A DNA stretch of 64,000 bases. Source: Celeribacter naphthalenivorans. GTDB lineage: Bacteria > Pseudomonadota > Alphaproteobacteria > Rhodobacterales > Rhodobacteraceae. Under the pieces are notes generated by a model that did not search any database, had not been told where the DNA came from, and saw only the letters and a program-made list of their open reading frames with translations. Where the stretch lies: positions 62,001 to 126,000 of the forward strand of contig NZ_JAIVLK010000010.1 in the NCBI RefSeq assembly GCF_020524585.1. Direction: 5' to 3'. Within the stretch, counting starts at the first letter, position 1. Each line of letters starts with the position of its first letter. A program made the position numbers and the translations under genes. Below are positions 39,050-46,835 of this stretch, one piece after another.

Positions 39050-39100
39050 ATGACCGTATCCATCAAAACATCCCTTCCGCAGGATCTGACGCGGCGCTGA
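39050..39100 (+). pseudogene. 16-codon ORF, possible truncated gene start or leader peptide
   Basis: ATG at 39050 with a strong RBS (AGGAGGG, eight bases before). It encodes MTVSIKTSLPQDLTRR and stops. A short CCCC-TTTTT-GGGG hairpin follows at once. The peptide looks to me like the N-terminus of fumarylacetoacetate-hydrolase family proteins, from memory, so this could be the stump of such a gene cut by the island. A leader peptide for the RtcB operon is the alternative. Confidence 0.4.
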
Positions 39101-39183
39101 TCCCCTTTTTGGGGTTTCCCAACATCGTGTCGATTCCTCCGCGACCTGTTTCGGTCGCTTCTTTTGCTATGGAAAGATCAACG

Positions 39184-40314
39184 ATGGGCACTCCCATTTT
39201 CGGGGAGCGGGACGCCGTGCGCGCCCACATCTCCAAATTTTACAATCGCGCGACCTGGATCGACGGGCGCGCAGAACACCAACTCGAACAGGTCGCGGGC
39301 TGGCCCGGCATGCAAGCCGTCGCCGGATTTCCCGATCTGCACCCCGGTCGCTATGGCCCGGTCGGCGCGGCCTTTCTGGCCGACCGCATCTGGCCCCAGC
39401 TTGTCGGGCCGGATATCGGCTGTGGCATGGCGCTGTTTCGCCTTGAGATGCCGCGCCGTCGCCTTAAACTCGACAAGGCGGCGCGTCGTCTCGCGGTGCT
39501 GGAGGACGGGGTGGACCCCGATCTGGCCCGCGCCGCTCTGGACGCTGCGGGCCTGACGGGTCTCATCGCCCCTGACGCGCTTGGCACCCTTGGTGGCGGC
39601 AATCATTTCTGTGAAGTTCAGGTGGTCGAGGCGGTCTTCGATCCGGCGCAGACTGCTCTGCGCAAAGACGACCTGTGCCTGCTGGTGCATTCCGGTTCGC
39701 GCGGGCGCGGCGCCGGGGTTTTTCAGGGGGTGAGCGACAGCTGGACACAGGGCTTTGCCACTGGCAGTGCGGCGGCCACAGATTACCTTGCCCTTCATGA
39801 CGCGGCCACCCGCTGGGCACGCGTAAACCGCGACCTGATTGCCTCCGCCGCCTCTGAAGCGCTGGGAAGTGACGCGCAGCTGATCTGCGACACGGTGCAC
39901 AATCATGTCGTGCCGCAATCCGATGGTTGGCTTCACCGCAAGGGCGCGGCTTGCCCGGATCAGGGCCTTGTGCCGCTGGCAGGCTCGCGCGAGACGCCGA
40001 GTTTTCTGCTTCAGGTGCCGGATCTGGTGCCCGAGGCGCTTGGCTCCGTATCGCATGGGGCCGGGCGGCGGTATGATCGCACCTCCATGCATGGTCGCAT
40101 CCGCAAGACGCGCTCCGATCTGGCCGCTCTGACGCGCACGCGGTTCGGCGGGCGGGTCATTTGCGGAGACCGGGACCTGCTTTTGGAAGAGGCCGGGCAG
40201 GCCTATAAGGACCCGGAGCAGGTGCTGCAAGACCTGTCCGGTTTCGGTCTCGCCCATGCCCTCGCGCGCCTTGTGCCGCTTGTCACCTTCAAGACGACAG
40301 GGGGTGCAAAATGA
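39184..40314 (+). CDS. rtcB: RtcB-family RNA ligase, PrfH-associated type (RtcB2)
   Basis: 376 residues from ATG 39184 (GGAAAG upstream; the frame is open to 39109). Joins RNA 2',3'-cyclic-phosphate or 3'-phosphate ends to 5'-OH ends using GTP and Mn. Ligands and nucleophile are visible: D77/C80 (DIGCGM), H141 (GGGNH), H169 (HSGSRG), the HNH at 239-241 and the guanylylated H291 (SHGAGR). It is shorter than E. coli RtcB and overlaps prfH by 4 bp. RtcB2-PrfH pairs are known to deal with ribosomes cut at the decoding centre: PrfH releases the stalled peptide and RtcB2 reseals 16S rRNA. That role is assigned from family knowledge. Confidence 0.92.
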   Translation: MGTPIFGERDAVRAHISKFYNRATWIDGRAEHQLEQVAGWPGMQAVAGFPDLHPGRYGPVGAAFLADRIWPQLVGPDIGCGMALFRLEMPRRRLKLDKAARRLAVLEDGVDPDLARAALDAAGLTGLIAPDALGTLGGGNHFCEVQVVEAVFDPAQTALRKDDLCLLVHSGSRGRGAGVFQGVSDSWTQGFATGSAAATDYLALHDAATRWARVNRDLIASAASEALGSDAQLICDTVHNHVVPQSDGWLHRKGAACPDQGLVPLAGSRETPSFLLQVPDLVPEALGSVSHGAGRRYDRTSMHGRIRKTRSDLAALTRTRFGGRVICGDRDLLLEEAGQAYKDPEQVLQDLSGFGLAHALARLVPLVTFKTTGGAK

Positions 40315-40946
40315 GCGAGCGAGAAGCCCTTCTGCTGTCCAGCGGCAATGGTCCGGGCGAGTGCCGACAAGCCGTTGCGCACCTGCTGTCTTGGCTGACG
40401 GCAATGGCGGCCGAGAGCGATGTCGACCTCGATGTCTCCACGCGAGACGCCCCGCACGGACCGGCCTCCGCAGTGGTGATCCTAAGCGGCCCGCGCGCCG
40501 GAGATCTGGCGCGTCGCGTCGAAGGGGTCATCCTGTGGCGGTGTCAAAGCGAACTGCGCCCGAAACATCGGCGGAAAACCTGGTTTGCGCAGATTTTCCG
40601 TCTGCCGGGCGCCAGGAAAGCCGCCGACATCGACCCTGACACCGTCGAGATGCAGGCCATGCGCGCCGGTGGCCCCGGCGGCCAGCATCAGAACAAAACC
40701 TCAAGCGCCATCAGGGCGCGCTGGACCAGTGCCGAGGGCAAGGTCTACGCCGTCGTGGTGCGCGACAGCCGCTCACAACACCAGAACCGCCGTCTGGCGC
40801 TGGACCGTCTGGCCGCCCTCGTCGCGGCAGAGCAGGCTGAGGCCGAGGCTTCGCATCGGGGTGAGACTTGGGCGCTTCACAACCAGCTCCAACGCGGCGC
40901 CCCGCGTCGGATTTTCGAAGGGAGGCAGTTCAAAGAAACGCCATGA
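40311..40946 (+). CDS. prfH: Peptide chain release factor H (PrfH)
   Basis: 211 residues, much shorter than RF1/RF2 and without the codon-recognition domain 2/4 layout. The GGQ motif is at 123-125 (RAGGPGGQHQNKT) followed by SSAIRA and a basic tail. It hydrolyses peptidyl-tRNA on damaged or stalled ribosomes and does not depend on stop codons in the usual way. Its ATG overlaps the rtcB stop by 4 bp. It ends 24 bp before the convergent rtcR stop. Confidence 0.94.
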   Translation: MSEREALLLSSGNGPGECRQAVAHLLSWLTAMAAESDVDLDVSTRDAPHGPASAVVILSGPRAGDLARRVEGVILWRCQSELRPKHRRKTWFAQIFRLPGARKAADIDPDTVEMQAMRAGGPGGQHQNKTSSAIRARWTSAEGKVYAVVVRDSRSQHQNRRLALDRLAALVAAEQAEAEASHRGETWALHNQLQRGAPRRIFEGRQFKETP

Positions 40947-40970
40947 CGGGCCGATATGGGCGCACAGGGC

Positions 40971-42542
40971 TCAACTGGCCCTGACCTGCTCCCAGTCTAG
41001 GCCGTATTTCGCAAGGTATTTGCGCAGGCGGTCCGCGTCATTGGTGGAGGTGCGGCGCGTGCGGGACTGGGCGAAGAGCATGCGCCCGGCCTCGCTCAGA
41101 CTGGCACTTTGGCGACAACTGCGGATCACCGCAGCCAGTTGCGCGCGGTCGAACAGATCGATCTCCTCGGCCACTCGCCCCAAAAGCTCCGTCAAAAGCT
41201 TTTGATCGGCGTCACGTCCAGAGGCGGACCACAGCGCCCTCAGGCGGAGGATTTCCTCCTCGACCATGGGGCGGGTGATCCGTCCGCGCGCCGCCAAAAT
41301 GCACATCCGCCGCACCGAGGCCCCGAAATCGCGGAAGTTTCCGGGCCAGAGCGTCGCCGGATCCCGGCAGAATTTCAGATAGCGGGCGCGGGCGTCGAGG
41401 TTGAATCCGTAATGCACGCCAAGCTCCTTTTCCGCGCGCGCCAGCTCATGGATCAGGTTGGGCTCAATATCTTCGCGACGCTGACGCAGCGGAGGGATTT
41501 CAAAGGTCCAGGCTGTGAGCCGGCTCAACAAATCCTGACGAAACAGGCCGTCGGCCGCCAGTTTGCGCAGGTCGCGGTTCGCGCCTGCGATGACCTGAAA
41601 CTGGCTTGAGACTTCATAATCCGCGCCAAGAGGATAGTAGCGCCCGGTCTCGATGGCGTGCAGGATCACCGCCTGCTCGCGCAGCCCCAGCTCGTCAATC
41701 TCATCGAGGAACAACACGCCACCGTCCGCCTCACGCAGCAACCCGTTGCGTTCCGAACCGGCCTGCCCCGTGTAGCCACGGCGCTGCCCAAAGAGCATGG
41801 CAATCCCGTCAGGTCCGGCGAGCGTGGCGCAATTTACATGCACCAAACGGCCTTTGATCATCCGTCGGTCGAGTTTCAGCGCATGGATGCGCTCGGCCAG
41901 TTGCGTCTTGCCCGTGCCGGTTTCGCCCAGCAACAGGATCGGCGCCTTGGTCGCCCCAGCCACATGTTCGATCTGTGAAATCAGACTGTTATAGGCAGGA
42001 TTGCGGGTGTCGATGCCGCCTTTCAAAAGATCGCTATATTCCTGCGAGATCAGATCAAAGCGATGTTGCAACGCATTATAGCGCCGCAGGTCCAAATCGA
42101 TGATGTCGAGTTTCGCGGGGAGATGATCCTCACGCGGCGGCCCGGTTTGCAACAGATGCGCCGGGACGTGACGGCTTTCGGCCAAGAGGAACCAGCAAAT
42201 CTGGGCCACATGCGTGCCGGTGGTCAGATGCACGTGATACTGTTCGCGGTCCTCATCAAATCCATAGCCTCGCGCGAAATCAAAAAGCTTGGCGTAGACC
42301 TCTTCGAAATCCCAAGGGTCTTCAAGATCGAGCCGATTGAGCACCACCTCGGTGTCCGGGCTGGCCGCTTCGATCTCGCGCTTCACCGCATGGGCCAAGC
42401 GATTGAATTTGTGGTCATGAAGCAGTTCGAGCCGATCCACGTGAAAGTCTTCATGGGCGACCAGCGATGGTGTCGGCTTCCAGCGCCGCCTCTTTCCCGC
42501 ATCGAGCTGGGTGCCTAGAAATCCGATGACGACGTTACGCAT
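40971..42542 (-). CDS. rtcR: RtcR, sigma-54-dependent activator with CARF-like sensor
   Basis: 523 residues. The N-terminal RtcR/CARF-like sensor (about 1-180) includes HLTTGTHVAQICWFL. The AAA+ domain (185-430) has Walker A GETGTGKT at 206-213 and Walker B LFLDEI at 277-282. The sigma-54 contact loop reads RGYTGQ at 255-260 in place of the canonical GAFTGA, a clear deviation. The C-terminal part (about 460-523) would bind DNA. It senses RNA-damage signals and activates rtc genes. It is divergent from the helical-repeat/RtcB operon and convergent with prfH. Confidence 0.93.
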   Translation of the reverse strand: MRNVVIGFLGTQLDAGKRRRWKPTPSLVAHEDFHVDRLELLHDHKFNRLAHAVKREIEAASPDTEVVLNRLDLEDPWDFEEVYAKLFDFARGYGFDEDREQYHVHLTTGTHVAQICWFLLAESRHVPAHLLQTGPPREDHLPAKLDIIDLDLRRYNALQHRFDLISQEYSDLLKGGIDTRNPAYNSLISQIEHVAGATKAPILLLGETGTGKTQLAERIHALKLDRRMIKGRLVHVNCATLAGPDGIAMLFGQRRGYTGQAGSERNGLLREADGGVLFLDEIDELGLREQAVILHAIETGRYYPLGADYEVSSQFQVIAGANRDLRKLAADGLFRQDLLSRLTAWTFEIPPLRQRREDIEPNLIHELARAEKELGVHYGFNLDARARYLKFCRDPATLWPGNFRDFGASVRRMCILAARGRITRPMVEEEILRLRALWSASGRDADQKLLTELLGRVAEEIDLFDRAQLAAVIRSCRQSASLSEAGRMLFAQSRTRRTSTNDADRLRKYLAKYGLDWEQVRAS

Positions 42543-42825
42543 GATATTATTTTATATAAGTTACGATTTTTTTATATCGTATATGAGAACAACCGCAACG
42601 CAAAACCCTTAATTAATCAAATTATTTCAACACCTTAATCTCATCCCGTTTCTTCTTCGAAGTGGGGCCGCGCAACAGCGACAAAGGGCCATCGAAAGAG
42701 TGAAGAGAAAAGAACGGGCAAATCCGTGTCCGCTGCACCGCCGGGGGCCAAGGGCCCATTCCCAAAGCCCCCGGCACCAACTTCAGACAGAGACCCTAAA
42801 GTTTCCGCCCGAAAGGACGGCCCAG
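42543..42825. promoter_or_regulatory. AT-rich intergenic region with RtcR upstream-site candidate
   Basis: 283 bp between rtcR and the repeat-protein gene. TACGAT and ATCGTA form an inverted repeat with eight bases between (42562-42581), a good enhancer-like site for RtcR. The AT-rich 42543-42640 part contrasts with the GC-rich surroundings. A weak -24/-12 candidate is GGCAC at 42773-42777 without a proper GC at -12, and GG-N10-GC at 42666-42679. I could not settle the promoter. Confidence 0.5.
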
Positions 42826-43824
42826 ATGACCAAGTACATGACCATAGCCGATCAGGCACAGCGTGCCGCGACGGAGCTCTATCGGCGCAAATTCTATTGG
42901 GGCACAGCGGGTTCCGAAATCGCCGTGCTGCATACTATGCTGTCACACCTCTCTCCCGAGGAGCTGGTTCAGGCCGAGCGCGATTGTCGGCAGGCGCTGT
43001 ACGGCGCGAAATGGCGAAACCACCCGCAAAAACTCCCGCGTTCCTCCGCGAAACGTTCCCCCCTCCTGCTCTCCACATCCGAAAATGGATTTCTGCGCGA
43101 AAAAGCCCTGCGTGTCATGGGTCCGAAACCCGGTGATCTCGTCACGGCAGTTTTCCTGATGATCCGCAGCAACGATTGGGTTCCGCAGGTCCGTCAGGTG
43201 GCGACAGACAGGCTTGTCGCAATCGTGCCGCAACTCAGCACGCCGCAACTACGCCAACTGCTGCCTTTCGCCTTGCTGCGCATGCAATATTGGCAACGAA
43301 GCGCAGGGGCCGCCTTCAAGGCGCTTCGCGAGCACGCCGATTGGGCGGAGACCTTCTACGCCTTTTTGAGAGAGGCAGATCGCGGCCCGCTGTCCCGGCT
43401 GATGCGAGCAGAGATGCAGTTTGAGACGCTTGACCCTTACTTGGTCAGACTGGCCACGGAGGCGCGCTCGACACAGGTGCGCGCGGTAGCAACCGAGGTG
43501 CTGTTGAACGGCGAGGCCAAATTGCGGGTCAGATGGCGCAAAAAATGGATCAGCAAATGGGACAACTTTTACCGCTGGGATCCGGTGGTTGAAATGCGGC
43601 CCATCGCGGCCCCCCCTGACGTCGCTCTGCAGGTGCTGCTCAGTGCCGGAAATGGCACGACCCCATTGCGCAAGCTGGCAGCGGACACCTTCATCCGGCT
43701 TGGCCCGCAGATCGCTCCCGATCTTGCTGCCCGCCTGATGAAAGACCGCACCCCTTCGGTGCGCCGCCGCATGGAATTTGTGACCCGAAAATGGGTTGAA
43801 AAAGAGACATTGATGACTGGATAG
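42826..43824 (+). CDS. Helical (HEAT/armadillo-like) repeat protein of unknown function, RtcB-linked
   Basis: 332 residues from ATG 42826 (AAAGGA upstream; the frame is open to 42700). I do not recognise the family. It is all-alpha by eye, with repeat-like pairs such as 'QVRQVATDRLVAIVPQLSTP', 'QVRAVATEVLLNGEAKLR' and PSVRRRMEFVTRKW, as in HEAT repeats. It is rich in Arg/Lys and Trp, which would suit RNA or ribosome binding. No catalytic motif or signal peptide was seen. Its stop is one base before the ATG of the second rtcB, so it is translationally coupled and probably works with that ligase. Confidence 0.7.
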   Translation: MTKYMTIADQAQRAATELYRRKFYWGTAGSEIAVLHTMLSHLSPEELVQAERDCRQALYGAKWRNHPQKLPRSSAKRSPLLLSTSENGFLREKALRVMGPKPGDLVTAVFLMIRSNDWVPQVRQVATDRLVAIVPQLSTPQLRQLLPFALLRMQYWQRSAGAAFKALREHADWAETFYAFLREADRGPLSRLMRAEMQFETLDPYLVRLATEARSTQVRAVATEVLLNGEAKLRVRWRKKWISKWDNFYRWDPVVEMRPIAAPPDVALQVLLSAGNGTTPLRKLAADTFIRLGPQIAPDLAARLMKDRTPSVRRRMEFVTRKWVEKETLMTG

Positions 43825-43825
43825 A

Positions 43826-45244
43826 ATGATGACGAAAGACATGACATTGACCCCGATCACCGGGACAGATCTGATCGCATGGGGGCATCTCCCCGGGGCG
43901 CAGTTTCCGGCGCTTTTGGAGCGTGCATCTCTGATGCTGGCCGAGGGGGCAAACCCGGAGGACATTCGGGCGGTGCTTGAGGTCGAGAAGCCGAAAGTGC
44001 TGCCGAAAATCCCGCTTCACGCCACGGGCGCTGTGCCGTTTCATGAGAACATCCGCGCAGAAACCCCGGACGAAGAGGACAACGTCGCCAAGGTGCGCGA
44101 GACCATGAAGGTCCTGATGCGCACGCCCACCGTGGTGAGCGGGGCCGTGATGCCGGATGCCTGCCCGGCGGGGCCGGTGGGGACCATTCCGGTCGGCGGG
44201 GTTGTCGCGGCGAAAAACGCCATTCACCCGGGGATGCATTCGGCGGACATCTGTTGTTCGGTGATGATGACCGATCTGGGGGATGCGGACCCGAAAACCG
44301 TGCTCGATGCGGCGCAATCGGTGACGCATTTCGGGCCCGGCGGACGGCGCAATGGCGCGCGGTTCACCACATCCCTGAAGCTTCTGGACGCGTTTCGCGA
44401 GAACCCCTTTCTGAACCATCCGAAAATCATGCGGATGGCACAGGAACACATGGGAACGCAGGGGGATGGCAACCATTTCCTCTTCGTCGGGCGGTCGCGC
44501 AACACCGGTCGCGTGGCCATGGTCACCCACCACGGCTCGCGCGGGCCGGGGGCCGTGCTCTACAAACTCGGCATGGATGTGGCGCAGAAGTTCCGCAAAC
44601 AGATCTCGCCTGAAACGTTAAAACAGAACGCCTGGATTCCGGCGGACAGCGCGGAAGGCATCGCCTATTGGGAGGCCCTCCAACTCATTCGCAAATGGAC
44701 CAAGGCCAACCACAACGCGCTCCATCAGGCGACGGTCGAGGCCGGGCGTCTGGGGGATGTCGGCGAGCGGATCTGGAACGAGCATAACTTCGTCTTCAAA
44801 CGCGGTGATCTCTATTACCACGGCAAGGGGGCGACGCCCGCCTGGGATCACTATGCGCAGGATGCGACGGGGCGCACGCTCATTCCGCTCAACATGGCCG
44901 AGCCTGTGCTGGTGGTGCGCGGGAGCGATGCCGGGCACGCGCTTGGGTTTAGCCCGCACGGCGCTGGGCGGAATTTTTCGCGCTCCGAACATCGTCGCCG
45001 GATGGGCGAGGTCACACCGGAGGAACAGCTCAAGGCGGAAACCTCCGGTCTCGACGTGCGGTTTCACGCCGGAGGCATCGACGCCTCCGAACTGCCGTCG
45101 AGCTACAAAAGCGCCACCTCGGTGGTCGATCAGATCAAGGATTACGGTCTGGCCGAGATCGAGGATTACATCGACCCTTACGGCTGTGTCATGGCCGGCG
45201 ATGTGCCGCCCTTTTGGATGACCCGCAAGAAAGCGCGCAGATAA
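43826..45244 (+). CDS. rtcB: RtcB-family RNA ligase, second and divergent type
   Basis: 472 residues, longer than the PrfH-linked RtcB by nearly 100. The metal site reads D141-ICC (C144) with MHSADICC in place of the canonical DIGCGM; H217 (GDGNH), H235 (HHGSRG), the EHN at 319-321 and the nucleophile H378 (PHGAGRNF) are present. It should be a catalytically active GTP-dependent ligase. It is coupled to the helical-repeat gene and ends in a strong terminator. Confidence 0.92.
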   Translation: MMTKDMTLTPITGTDLIAWGHLPGAQFPALLERASLMLAEGANPEDIRAVLEVEKPKVLPKIPLHATGAVPFHENIRAETPDEEDNVAKVRETMKVLMRTPTVVSGAVMPDACPAGPVGTIPVGGVVAAKNAIHPGMHSADICCSVMMTDLGDADPKTVLDAAQSVTHFGPGGRRNGARFTTSLKLLDAFRENPFLNHPKIMRMAQEHMGTQGDGNHFLFVGRSRNTGRVAMVTHHGSRGPGAVLYKLGMDVAQKFRKQISPETLKQNAWIPADSAEGIAYWEALQLIRKWTKANHNALHQATVEAGRLGDVGERIWNEHNFVFKRGDLYYHGKGATPAWDHYAQDATGRTLIPLNMAEPVLVVRGSDAGHALGFSPHGAGRNFSRSEHRRRMGEVTPEEQLKAETSGLDVRFHAGGIDASELPSSYKSATSVVDQIKDYGLAEIEDYIDPYGCVMAGDVPPFWMTRKKARR

Positions 45245-45247
45245 GTC

Positions 45248-45278
45248 GAGGCAGGAGGGATGTGATCCCTCCTGCCTC
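45248..45278. terminator. Bidirectional terminator after the second rtcB
   Basis: A 14-bp perfect stem (45248-45261 with 45265-45278) and a GTG loop, lying between the convergent rtcB and HD-domain genes. It lacks long T runs but is very stable and marks the right border of the RNA-repair operon. Confidence 0.8.
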
Positions 45279-45282
45279 ACTT

Positions 45283-45867
45283 CTAAAGCGGGCATCGCCG
45301 GAAAAACGGCATGCGGTCGGTGTCCAGAAGCGCCTTGTCCGCCGCGAAAAGATCGGCGTAATGCAGGATCAACACCTCCCGATCCGGGCCACGCAGGGGG
45401 GCATGCGTCGCATGGGTGGCCACGGCGGCGGTGATCTCTTCGCCGACCCCCAGTTCGGCCAACAGCATGGCCGCCAACACCCCGTGCGGAATGCGCAGTG
45501 ACACCGGAGTTGCATGGTCCTCCCCTGCCCGACGATCCATCAACAGGGGCTTGTCCAGATCGTGCAGGAGCAGGATCGCCACCAGACGTTGCCGGTCGAT
45601 CTCCCACCCCCATTGCCGCGCCGCCATATCACTGAGCGCCAGCCCGGCCTCAACGACATCATTGGTGTGATCCACCAAACGGTCAGTCGAACCATGCGAA
45701 AACGGCACATCGAACACCGTGTCATAGGAGGAAGAGGCCACCACGCTGCACCAGGCGCAGAGCACCTGATCCCGCAACGCGCCCTCAAGCTCGACCAGAC
45801 GCGGAAAGGCCTCTGACAGCAGCGCCACCTGTTTTTCATCCGGAATTTCGATCTGATAGCTTTTCAT
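45283..45867 (-). CDS. HD-domain protein (putative phosphohydrolase)
   Basis: 194 residues with a complete HD signature: H67 (VDHTND), H102-D103 (LLHDLDK), H128 (IPHGV), H152 (THATH) and D172 (YADLFAAD). It probably removes a phosphate from a nucleotide or other small molecule, with no extra domain to say which. It is convergent with the second rtcB and divergent from rpiR (98 bp), so it could belong either to the RNA-repair island or to the RpiR-controlled transport cluster. I favour the latter because a terminator separates it from rtcB. Confidence 0.85.
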   Translation of the reverse strand: MKSYQIEIPDEKQVALLSEAFPRLVELEGALRDQVLCAWCSVVASSSYDTVFDVPFSHGSTDRLVDHTNDVVEAGLALSDMAARQWGWEIDRQRLVAILLLHDLDKPLLMDRRAGEDHATPVSLRIPHGVLAAMLLAELGVGEEITAAVATHATHAPLRGPDREVLILHYADLFAADKALLDTDRMPFFRRCPL

Positions 45868-45965
45868 TTTTCAACTTTCGGTTCAGGTTACATCTGTCTT
45901 CGGGAAAAAAGTTTCAAAGCCGTGCGCCTTGCCTCGGACACGCAGCAACACCACAGGGACACAGG

Positions 45966-46835
45966 ATGAACGACGCCACATTGGAAAGCCGGATTTATCA
46001 GGTCTATGCGGAGCTTAGCCCCTCTGAGAAACGGCTGGCCAATGTCATGCTCGAACATCAGATGGACATGCCGCTCTACACCGCCTCCGAATTGGCGGCG
46101 AAGGCCAGCGTGTCCAAAAGCACCGCCGCGCGGCTGATCCGGGTGCTCGGCTATCGCAGCTACCCGGAGGCGAAACGCGCCATTCGGGCCGAACAATTCT
46201 GGGGCTCGCCGCAGAGCGGTCTGTCGGATCGCGCGCCAGAAGACGGCGACACGCTGCGCGCCGAAACGATGATTGACACCGACATCGAAAACATTCGCCA
46301 GACCTTTGCCGCCCTCCCCGAACAGCGCCTCACCGAGGCCGCTGAGCGCATCGTGGGCGCAACGCGGGTCTGGATCATCGGGCTGCGCAGCGGTCACGGA
46401 TTGGCCAGCCATGCGGCGCATTACCTGACGCTGGTGCGCCCGGACGTGCATCTGATCGACGTCGGTTCGGGGTCTTTGTCGCATGACGTCGGCAACATGC
46501 GGCAGGGTGATCTGTTGATCGTCATCGCCTTTCGCCGCCGCCCCAAGGTGCTTGTGCCCCTGCTCGAAGCGGTGCGAGATCTGGGCGGGCAAACGCTTTT
46601 GATCACCGATATGAGCGCGGGCGCCAGTGCGCGCACCGCCGATCTCACCCTGCGTTGCCGGACCCAAAGCCCGGCGCCGTTCAACAGTTTCACGGCGGCG
46701 GTGACGCTGATCAATCATCTGGCCTGGCAGGTGCATGGGCTTCAGGGCAGCGCCGCGGCGGATCGGTATCGCCATATCGACCAGCTCGTGCGACGCCTCG
46801 ACAATGTGTCCACCCCCCAGACCAAAGACGGCTGA
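45966..46835 (+). CDS. RpiR-family transcriptional regulator
   Basis: 289 residues: an N-terminal HTH_6 domain (about 1-75, 'ELAAKASVSKSTAARLIRVL') and a C-terminal SIS domain (about 110-260, with IIGLRSGHGLASHAAHYLT) that binds a phosphosugar or similar ligand. It ends two bases before the convergent racemase gene. It is the obvious regulator of the Ugp-type transporter operon ending there. Confidence 0.9.
   Translation: MNDATLESRIYQVYAELSPSEKRLANVMLEHQMDMPLYTASELAAKASVSKSTAARLIRVLGYRSYPEAKRAIRAEQFWGSPQSGLSDRAPEDGDTLRAETMIDTDIENIRQTFAALPEQRLTEAAERIVGATRVWIIGLRSGHGLASHAAHYLTLVRPDVHLIDVGSGSLSHDVGNMRQGDLLIVIAFRRRPKVLVPLLEAVRDLGGQTLLITDMSAGASARTADLTLRCRTQSPAPFNSFTAAVTLINHLAWQVHGLQGSAAADRYRHIDQLVRRLDNVSTPQTKDG

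Follow-up and report, generated by a model that had tools for sequence, protein, structure and literature searches.

The genes and signals of the RNA-repair island

The window considered here is a stretch of 64,000 nucleotides from the marine bacterium Celeribacter naphthalenivorans (contig NZ_JAIVLK010000010.1, positions 62,001 to 126,000), and the system in question is an island in which two RNA-repair units lie side by side (Table 1). The first unit is the overlapping pair of rtcB2, for an RtcB-type RNA ligase, and prfH; the second is an operon of a HEAT-like helical-repeat gene and a longer rtcB, which runs divergently from the regulator gene rtcR and is preceded by a structured leader RNA. 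A sequence-only reading of this DNA had listed these genes together with a 4-base overlap of rtcB2 and prfH, a 1-base gap between the helical open reading frame (ORF) and the long rtcB, an excess of 96 residues in the second RtcB and the letters DICC in its metal loop, and all of these are present. The same reading let one RtcR serve both RtcB proteins. Comparison of related loci leads us to favour, with some reserve, another arrangement, in which the adjacent units would be switched by different sensors: the state of the ribosome for rtcB2-prfH, and an RtcR working without sigma54 for the operon of leader RNA, HEAT-like gene and long rtcB.

Table 1. Features of the island, in positions of the window
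Feature	Position	Strand	Remarks
Leader ORF	39050-39100	+	16 codons, MTVSIKTSLPQDLTRR; strong Shine-Dalgarno; upstream of rtcB2
Terminator-like hairpin with T-rich tail	39141-39168	+	between leader ORF and rtcB2
rtcB2	39184-40314	+	376 aa; alternative start 39169; TIGR03073 above cut-off
prfH, peptide chain release factor H	40311-40946	+	TIGR03072 just above cut-off
rtcR, CARF-AAA-HTH regulator	40971-42542	-	NF038308; degenerate GAFTGA loop LFGQRRGYTGQAG
Inverted repeat ACGAT-N8-ATCGT	42563-42580		candidate RtcR operator; motif match
Leader RNA core	42714-42777	+	hairpin 1 loop AAUCCG, hairpin 2 loop CCCAUU
HEAT-like helical-repeat gene	42826-43824	+	332 aa; no family above cut-off
Long rtcB, DICC clade RNA ligase	43826-45244	+	472 aa; Pfam and alignments
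Perfect 14-bp hairpin	45248-45278	+	directly after long rtcB stop; read by eye; without T run

RtcB2 scores above the cut-off of NCBIfam TIGR03073 (301.6 against 271.8) and below that of the stricter NF007153 (375.7 against 407). PrfH passes TIGR03072 narrowly (167.4 against 166.65), and a TIGR03073 gene overlapping a TIGR03072 gene is the arrangement of the RtcB2-PrfH module. RtcR exceeds the cut-off of NF038308 (679.8 against 650 bits) and matches the PADLOC RtcR model CARF_AAA_HTH with 756 bits. Our family survey comprised 248 genomes, the window genome (G000, 99.96% complete) among them. In the searches with alignments A1 and A2 no more than 4-5 candidates were scored for each genome, so that absence in these searches is weak.

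The long RtcB usually lies in an operon divergent from RtcR that also codes for a TROVE (Ro60) protein, as in Rhizobium, Shinella and most of the Rhodobacteraceae RtcR loci examined. Eighteen Rhodobacteraceae loci have an intact RtcR beside a long RtcB: 11 bear TROVE (L045, L051-L058, L062, L131) and 7 are TROVE-less (the window, L001, L127, L059, L060, L061, L071). Locus L069 (G203) was left out of this count; its RtcR and long-RtcB frames, next to each other, are both shortened, and this copy of the operon appears to be decaying. Rfam placed the Y RNA YrlA between TROVE and RtcB (or HEAT) in 6/6 Rhodobacteraceae TROVE loci submitted to it, found none in any of the 7 TROVE-less loci and gave no match at gathering score in 2 Rhizobium loci. 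TROVE has no match in the whole window genome, and of the Ro60 gene and YrlA RNA that characterize rsr-yrl-rtcBA operons neither was detected in the window operon. In six of the 10 Rhodobacteraceae Ro60-RtcB operons scanned, ARAGORN also detected tRNA genes between Ro60 and RtcB (or HEAT), namely Lys-UUU, Asn-GUU, Pro-UGG and Gln-UUG (L045:9013-9088, L054:8521-8596, L055:8654-8729, L056:10483-10750, L057:8668-8742, L058:1907-1982), and these operons look as though they supply spare tRNAs.

Control of the two units

The rtcB2-prfH pair has its own upstream signals, a short ORF with a strong Shine-Dalgarno sequence and a terminator-like hairpin. In Tritonibacter (L190) the corresponding ORF reads MTDTINTSLPLDLMRL and a terminator-like hairpin stands in the same place. 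Such an ORF precedes rtcB2 in 9/13 loci and 7 of 213 background ORFs (Fisher 2e-9), the background being ORFs called mechanically in 11 loci with a minimum length of 250 aa, a subset of genes. The 13 loci do not include L181, which is cut short, L185, which is split, and 26 of the 31 plasmid records with an RtcB2 match; the test may undercount leader ORFs because in some loci the ORF start used lies upstream of the likely one. The order of short ORF, terminator (by itself not above chance), RtcB-like gene and prfH is that of the PA5471.1-type leader. For the P. aeruginosa genes PA5471.1-armZ-prfH, ribosome-targeting drugs have been proposed to relieve attenuation (PMC12057347, in the part available). 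The words leader and attenuat- are absent from the main text of the PrfH papers PMC1586002 and PMC9223846.

We think that rtcB2-prfH is probably controlled by the state of the ribosome, through attenuation at this leader peptide. A ribosome failing to translate or finish the 16 codons would let transcription pass the terminator, and damaged or blocked ribosomes would thereby induce the very pair that releases and re-seals them. Some observations weigh against such control. Strict terminator criteria pick out only two of the 13 rtcB2 loci, those of the window and Tritonibacter, and the region holds 6 terminator-like sites against a shuffled mean of 6.6; the hairpin alone is weak evidence because shuffles give as many matches. 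The leader region is also without a sigma70 promoter-like match. Ahead of rtcB2 the strongest sigma54-like match has a score of 11.5 of 14.7, and 10% of shuffles reach this value, so that a weak sigma54 site is possible there by sequence.

The second unit adjoins a regulator whose contact with sigma54 appears to have been lost. The GAFTGA loop is degenerate in 18/18 Rhodobacteraceae RtcRs and intact, as GA[FY]TGA, in 8/8 RtcRs from other families. On the scoring matrix used, all of 7 Rhizobiales loci have a sigma54-type site of 12 or more, and none of the 17 Rhodobacteraceae loci scored exceeds 11.2. The presence of such a site close to the window rtcR was rejected, since 95% of shuffles reach the best score found there. 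No sigma54 DNA-binding domain was detected in the window genome, nor in all in 11 of the 16 Rhodobacteraceae genomes tested, this one included; the domain was found in the non-Rhodobacteraceae genome G434 and in 4/14 control genomes, including Caulobacter and E. coli. Because neither an intact GAFTGA loop nor a -24/-12 promoter nor a genomic sigma54 was detected, the protein seems to be RtcR by sequence with a changed mechanism. RtcR has been described as a sigma54 activator (PMC9650030, in the part available), and the GAFTGA-less NtrC of R. capsulatus and Caulobacter acts at sigma70 promoters (PMC10274813, likewise in part). Among the literature matches listed, judged by title and start of abstract, there was none on an RtcR with degenerate GAFTGA or in Rhodobacter.

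A candidate operator is the inverted repeat ACGAT-N8-ATCGT, which has a single exact occurrence in the 64 kb, ahead of the helical/RtcB operon; before rtcB2 the best match departs from it at 3 positions. The repeat is exact in five of the 18 Rhodobacteraceae loci (window, L001, L127, L059, L055) and has one mismatch in L053 and L071. Two facts speak against a sigma54-free RtcR acting at this site: most Ro60-bearing loci, and L060 and L061 as well, have only a weak repeat or none, and sigma54 is present in 5/16 Rhodobacteraceae genomes, including G646, a same-genus relative with the HEAT-RtcB operon.

If the two units were under one regulator, how often would they be met together? PrfH is clear in 10 of the 248 family genomes, the window included (E < 1e-25). 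The rtcB2-prfH pair was recovered at 8 of the nine other PrfH loci, the ninth (G026) being split and without a match, and no RtcR was seen in the stretch examined around these 8, two of the stretches being short; in Tritonibacter, too, the pair stands without RtcR in the stretch examined. Conversely, E. ulvae (L001) and G646 (L127) have the HEAT-RtcB operon and no rtcB2-prfH in the stretch examined. Both units are found together in the window and also in Shinella, where their order differs. The proposal of two parallel branches thus holds by sequence insofar as two distinct branches exist. Its other half, that RtcR induces both operons together, the first serving the decoding centre and the second some other RNA, appears improbable to us: adjacency favours it, as does Shinella, where TROVE, long rtcB, rtcB2 and prfH are consecutive on one strand beside rtcR, yet the rtcB2 upstream region has its own leader ORF and no candidate operator, the sigma54-like match there is weak in a genome without detectable sigma54, and in the stretches examined rtcB2-prfH was met without RtcR and the HEAT-RtcB operon without rtcB2-prfH. 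On the same grounds we part from the claim that one RtcR is shared. Separate sensors are the arrangement we prefer, and two loci count against it. In Shinella both units point the same way, rtcB2-prfH coming after the long RtcB, and one regulator could serve both; in Novosphingobium sp. KACC 22771 (NZ_CP117882.1, 874420-880800) a TROVE match lies about 4 kb from an rtcB2 match, perhaps another joining of repair modules.

The leader RNA and the proteins of the RtcR-linked operon

What stands in the TROVE-less operons where their relatives have Ro60 and YrlA? The interval from rtcR to the first gene is conserved among the window, L001 and L127, and holds the two-hairpin core, preceded by a conserved purine-rich stretch from about position 42691. 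A covariance model of these three loci (R1) found four other TROVE-less Rhodobacteraceae loci at E 5e-8 to 0.03, the next match elsewhere having E 0.27. In an alignment of six sequences, which was fitted to the model and to that extent favours the structure, 98% of the cells are paired and 8/18 pairs have two-sided changes; none of 500 shuffles reached either value. RNAalifold, with its own alignment of seven sequences, gave 9 pairs, all in hairpin 2 and 5 of them with two-sided changes. Pairing by hand outward from the loops gave both hairpins in 7/7 leader loci, and single-sequence folding was modestly better than that of shuffles (z -1.8 to -2.9). Palindromes beside a regulator gene can be operators, and the conserved element might then be a DNA binding site; this is scarcely credible here, as paired positions change together around nearly fixed loops and the covariation signal is lost when the partner is shifted by 1-3 columns.

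A second model (R2) was trained on six of the seven positive loci. The one held out, Phaeobacter L071, scored 55.7 bits, against 17.6 bits for the best match in any TROVE locus. Applied with stricter filters to the 248 family genomes, R2 had only four strong matches (E <= 2e-10), all just upstream of the long-RtcB operon discussed here, and six weak ones (E 0.02-0.05) that look like noise. The leader RNA is present in 7/7 Ro60-less and 0/11 Ro60-bearing Rhodobacteraceae RtcR loci (Fisher 3e-5). A replacement of Ro60 by the leader is weakened by the RtcB tree, in which the leader-RNA loci fall in two clades, so that the association rests on few events. The leader was not found in the TROVE-less Rhizobiales loci L043, L072, L077 and L078.

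Two other identities were rejected. Rfam gave no match at E<=1 for window positions 42400-46000 or for the L001 leader, and none at gathering scores for the other five leader loci, and YrlA or another Rfam RNA was rejected on these results. The second identity was that of a leader coding for an extended HEAT protein, since in the window an ORF runs through it from GTG 42700; yet the L001 HEAT ORF starts downstream of the leader (8145), with the similar L001 stretch belonging to a different ORF, and the leader of L059-L061 and L071 precedes rtcB itself. As the conserved leader RNA separates GTG 42700 from ATG 42826, the latter is the likely HEAT start. Among the literature matches listed, by title and start of abstract, none dealt with a structured RNA linked to rtcB.

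Is the leader RNA, then, a translation-regulating 5′ leader or a free-standing, trans-acting RNA that takes the place of a Y RNA? The latter is a fair contender to which we give the smaller share of belief. It would suit the niche of Ro60 and YrlA, which the RNA holds without co-occurring with Ro60 among the 18 loci, and also the conservation of both loops while the stems covary; against it, in the six loci measured the RNA stops 37-49 bases short of the first start codon, be it HEAT or rtcB, as a 5′ leader would. As a tentative reading that we hold to be rather doubtful, the leader would be a new class of structured RNA replacing Ro60 and Y RNA in sigma54-free RtcR operons. Its hairpin 2 would mimic a tRNA anticodon arm bound by RtcB, the HEAT-like protein or a tRNA-cutting nuclease, and the HEAT-like protein would be an RNA-binding partner in Ro60's part. 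The likeness of hairpin 2 (GGG-CCCAUU-CCC) to the initiator tRNA arm is our assumption. If this were true, there would be a direct coupling between the output of repair enzymes and how much tRNA is broken.

The repeat protein was called unrecognised in the sequence-only reading. Searches of NCBIfam, PADLOC and PDB sequences gave no match to it, and Pfam matches only at chance level (E 0.77). Its predicted model, from a two-sequence alignment, is helical with one beta hairpin (predicted local distance difference test, pLDDT, 56). The best Foldseek matches are HEAT proteins, with E 4e-3 at best and none at E <= 0.001, and Pfam has no HEAT match; we therefore call the fold HEAT-like with low confidence. 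A diverged Ro60 was rejected (hhalign probability to TROVE/Ro60 0.3%), and one pattern scan gave no viral relatives.

Relatives of this protein occur in 8/248 family genomes. They are adjacent to a long RtcB in three (G000, G196, G221) and elsewhere in the genome in two (G217, G243), the other three lacking a long RtcB; G325, G495 and G599 have partial matches. Further linked pairs are those of E. ulvae, the same-genus genome and Rhizobium plasmids (L042, L043). In another sample of relatives the gene was present in 2/61, the window included. It lies upstream of rtcB in the window, L001, L127 and L045 and downstream in L051, L042 and L043. Plasmids of Pantoea, Duffyella and Eleftheria (L040, L041, L044, L133) also carry members of the family that are not near rtcB, and Eleftheria has two nearly identical copies near insertion sequences.

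The pairing of repeat gene and rtcB is thus real and recurrent, as had been proposed, and at the same time optional. The finding that would have told against it, relatives lying mostly away from rtcB, was partly obtained: this holds for 5/8 family genomes and, by comparing positions, 27/30 plasmid records. These counts suit the idea of a passenger, in which a mobile gene with some unrelated function came by chance to lie in the operon, as does its faster divergence (68% identity between window and L001, against 88% for RtcB). Nevertheless, we consider a passenger unlikely. Linkage to rtcB appears in four places of the RtcB tree and in differing gene orders, a single clade of linked copies was rejected (approximately unbiased test, p 0.026, on a quick tree with long branches), and the gene ends one base from the rtcB start. 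Moreover, a long RtcB is present in 5/8 genomes with the gene and 16/240 without it (Fisher 1e-4, the G079 fragment being left out). We read the HEAT-like protein as a recurrent but optional accessory that would bind RNA or RtcB.

The long RtcB is an RtcB RNA ligase by family and residue criteria. Pfam PF01139 matches it with 113 bits, and D141, C144, N216, H217, H235, H332 and H378 are invariant in alignment A2 and were aligned to solved RtcBs. We take N216, H217, H235, H332 and H378 to be catalytic residues of RtcB, with presumed roles in metal binding or guanylation. The sequence-only reading had drawn attention to the DICC loop and the extra length; both are there, but neither appears to be special. 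The loop (SADICCSV in the window) has the form D-I/V-C-C-S in 19/19 aligned long RtcBs from Rhodobacteraceae, Rhizobiales and one phage-like plasmid context, with D, C, C and S invariant, and a special catalytic change was rejected since the loop is clade-wide. Its D and second C align with the D and C of DINC in solved RtcBs, so DICC replaces neither. The length is ordinary, the matched solved RtcBs having 481-530 residues.

Long-RtcB relatives occur in 28 phage records, for example L135 and L136, with 45-58% identity among the 20 matches listed; the phages are those of Rhizobium, Cellulophaga, Tenacibaculum, Mesorhizobium and Bradyrhizobium, and they may use these proteins against host tRNA cleavage. 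Loci L063-L068 form a separate Rhodobacteraceae clade of long RtcB, with no RtcR in the stretch examined (L068 being a short contig). On a Rhizobium phaseoli plasmid (L076) a gene annotated as RNA ligase, possibly a further ligase, lies near rtcR and long rtcB.

The hairpin directly after the long rtcB is likely a transcript end or an mRNA stabiliser, and it is not among the terminator-like sites of the region scan. Beyond it an HD-domain protein (Pfam HD, 45283-45867) is encoded convergently with the long rtcB; searches of the related loci turned up no relative.

Proposed mechanism and known systems

The RtcR-linked unit may be seen as a Ro60-less version of the RtcR-Ro60-Y RNA-RtcB operon. 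RtcR presumably senses, through its CARF domain, tRNA fragments with cyclic-phosphate ends, and would activate the divergent operon without sigma54, the inverted repeat at 42563 probably serving as its site and the housekeeping polymerase as the enzyme. The two-hairpin RNA would head the transcript, in place of the Ro60 and Y RNA of its relatives, and the HEAT-like protein and the long RtcB, the latter probably for breaks of the tRNA type, would be encoded after it. Gene content, the covariation of the leader, its tie to a missing Ro60, the lost GAFTGA, the undetected sigma54 and the leader ORF with its terminator-like hairpin are seen in the sequences; from these we infer all functions in this scheme, including RtcR binding, the RNAs joined and the contacts of the HEAT-like protein.

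The RtcR copies examined in one bacterial family are without sigma54 contact, contrary to the description of RtcR as a sigma54 activator, and many of the genomes have no detectable sigma54. The covarying leader that stands in for Ro60 and Y RNA opens a direct approach to the part that these have in RNA repair, a role that the available part of PMC7790460 states its own experiments left unaddressed.

That paper describes the Salmonella rsr-yrlBA-rtcBA operon (Hughes et al. 2020, PMC7790460), likewise accompanied by an RtcR of the NF038308 family. The relatives of the window locus share its Ro60 (TROVE) and YrlA. In the window itself neither was detected; its structured RNA is another one, it has a HEAT-like gene and an RtcB of a different clade, and its RtcR is without GAFTGA, with no sigma54 detected in the genome. 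RtcA is not among the six island proteins, no genome-wide search having been made. The NtrC of Rhodobacter capsulatus and Caulobacter (PMC10274813, in the part available) is also an alphaproteobacterial member of the enhancer-binding proteins without the sigma54-contact motif; the window RtcR is distinguished by its CARF sensor and RNA-repair target.

The rtcB2-prfH unit has the same gene pair and coupling as the RtcB2-PrfH module of ribosome rescue and repair (PMC9223846, in the part available), but in the window the pair adjoins an RtcR-long-RtcB operon, which among the loci examined was otherwise met only in Shinella. With P. aeruginosa PA5471.1-armZ(PA5471)-prfH(PA5470), as presented in the available part of PMC12057347, it shares a short leader ORF, a terminator-like hairpin, an RtcB-like gene and prfH. 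The two cases differ in host and in the sequence of the leader, and the likeness on the window side is one of sequence alone. It suggests that the armZ-type leader, known from Pseudomonas, accompanies ribosome repair more generally.

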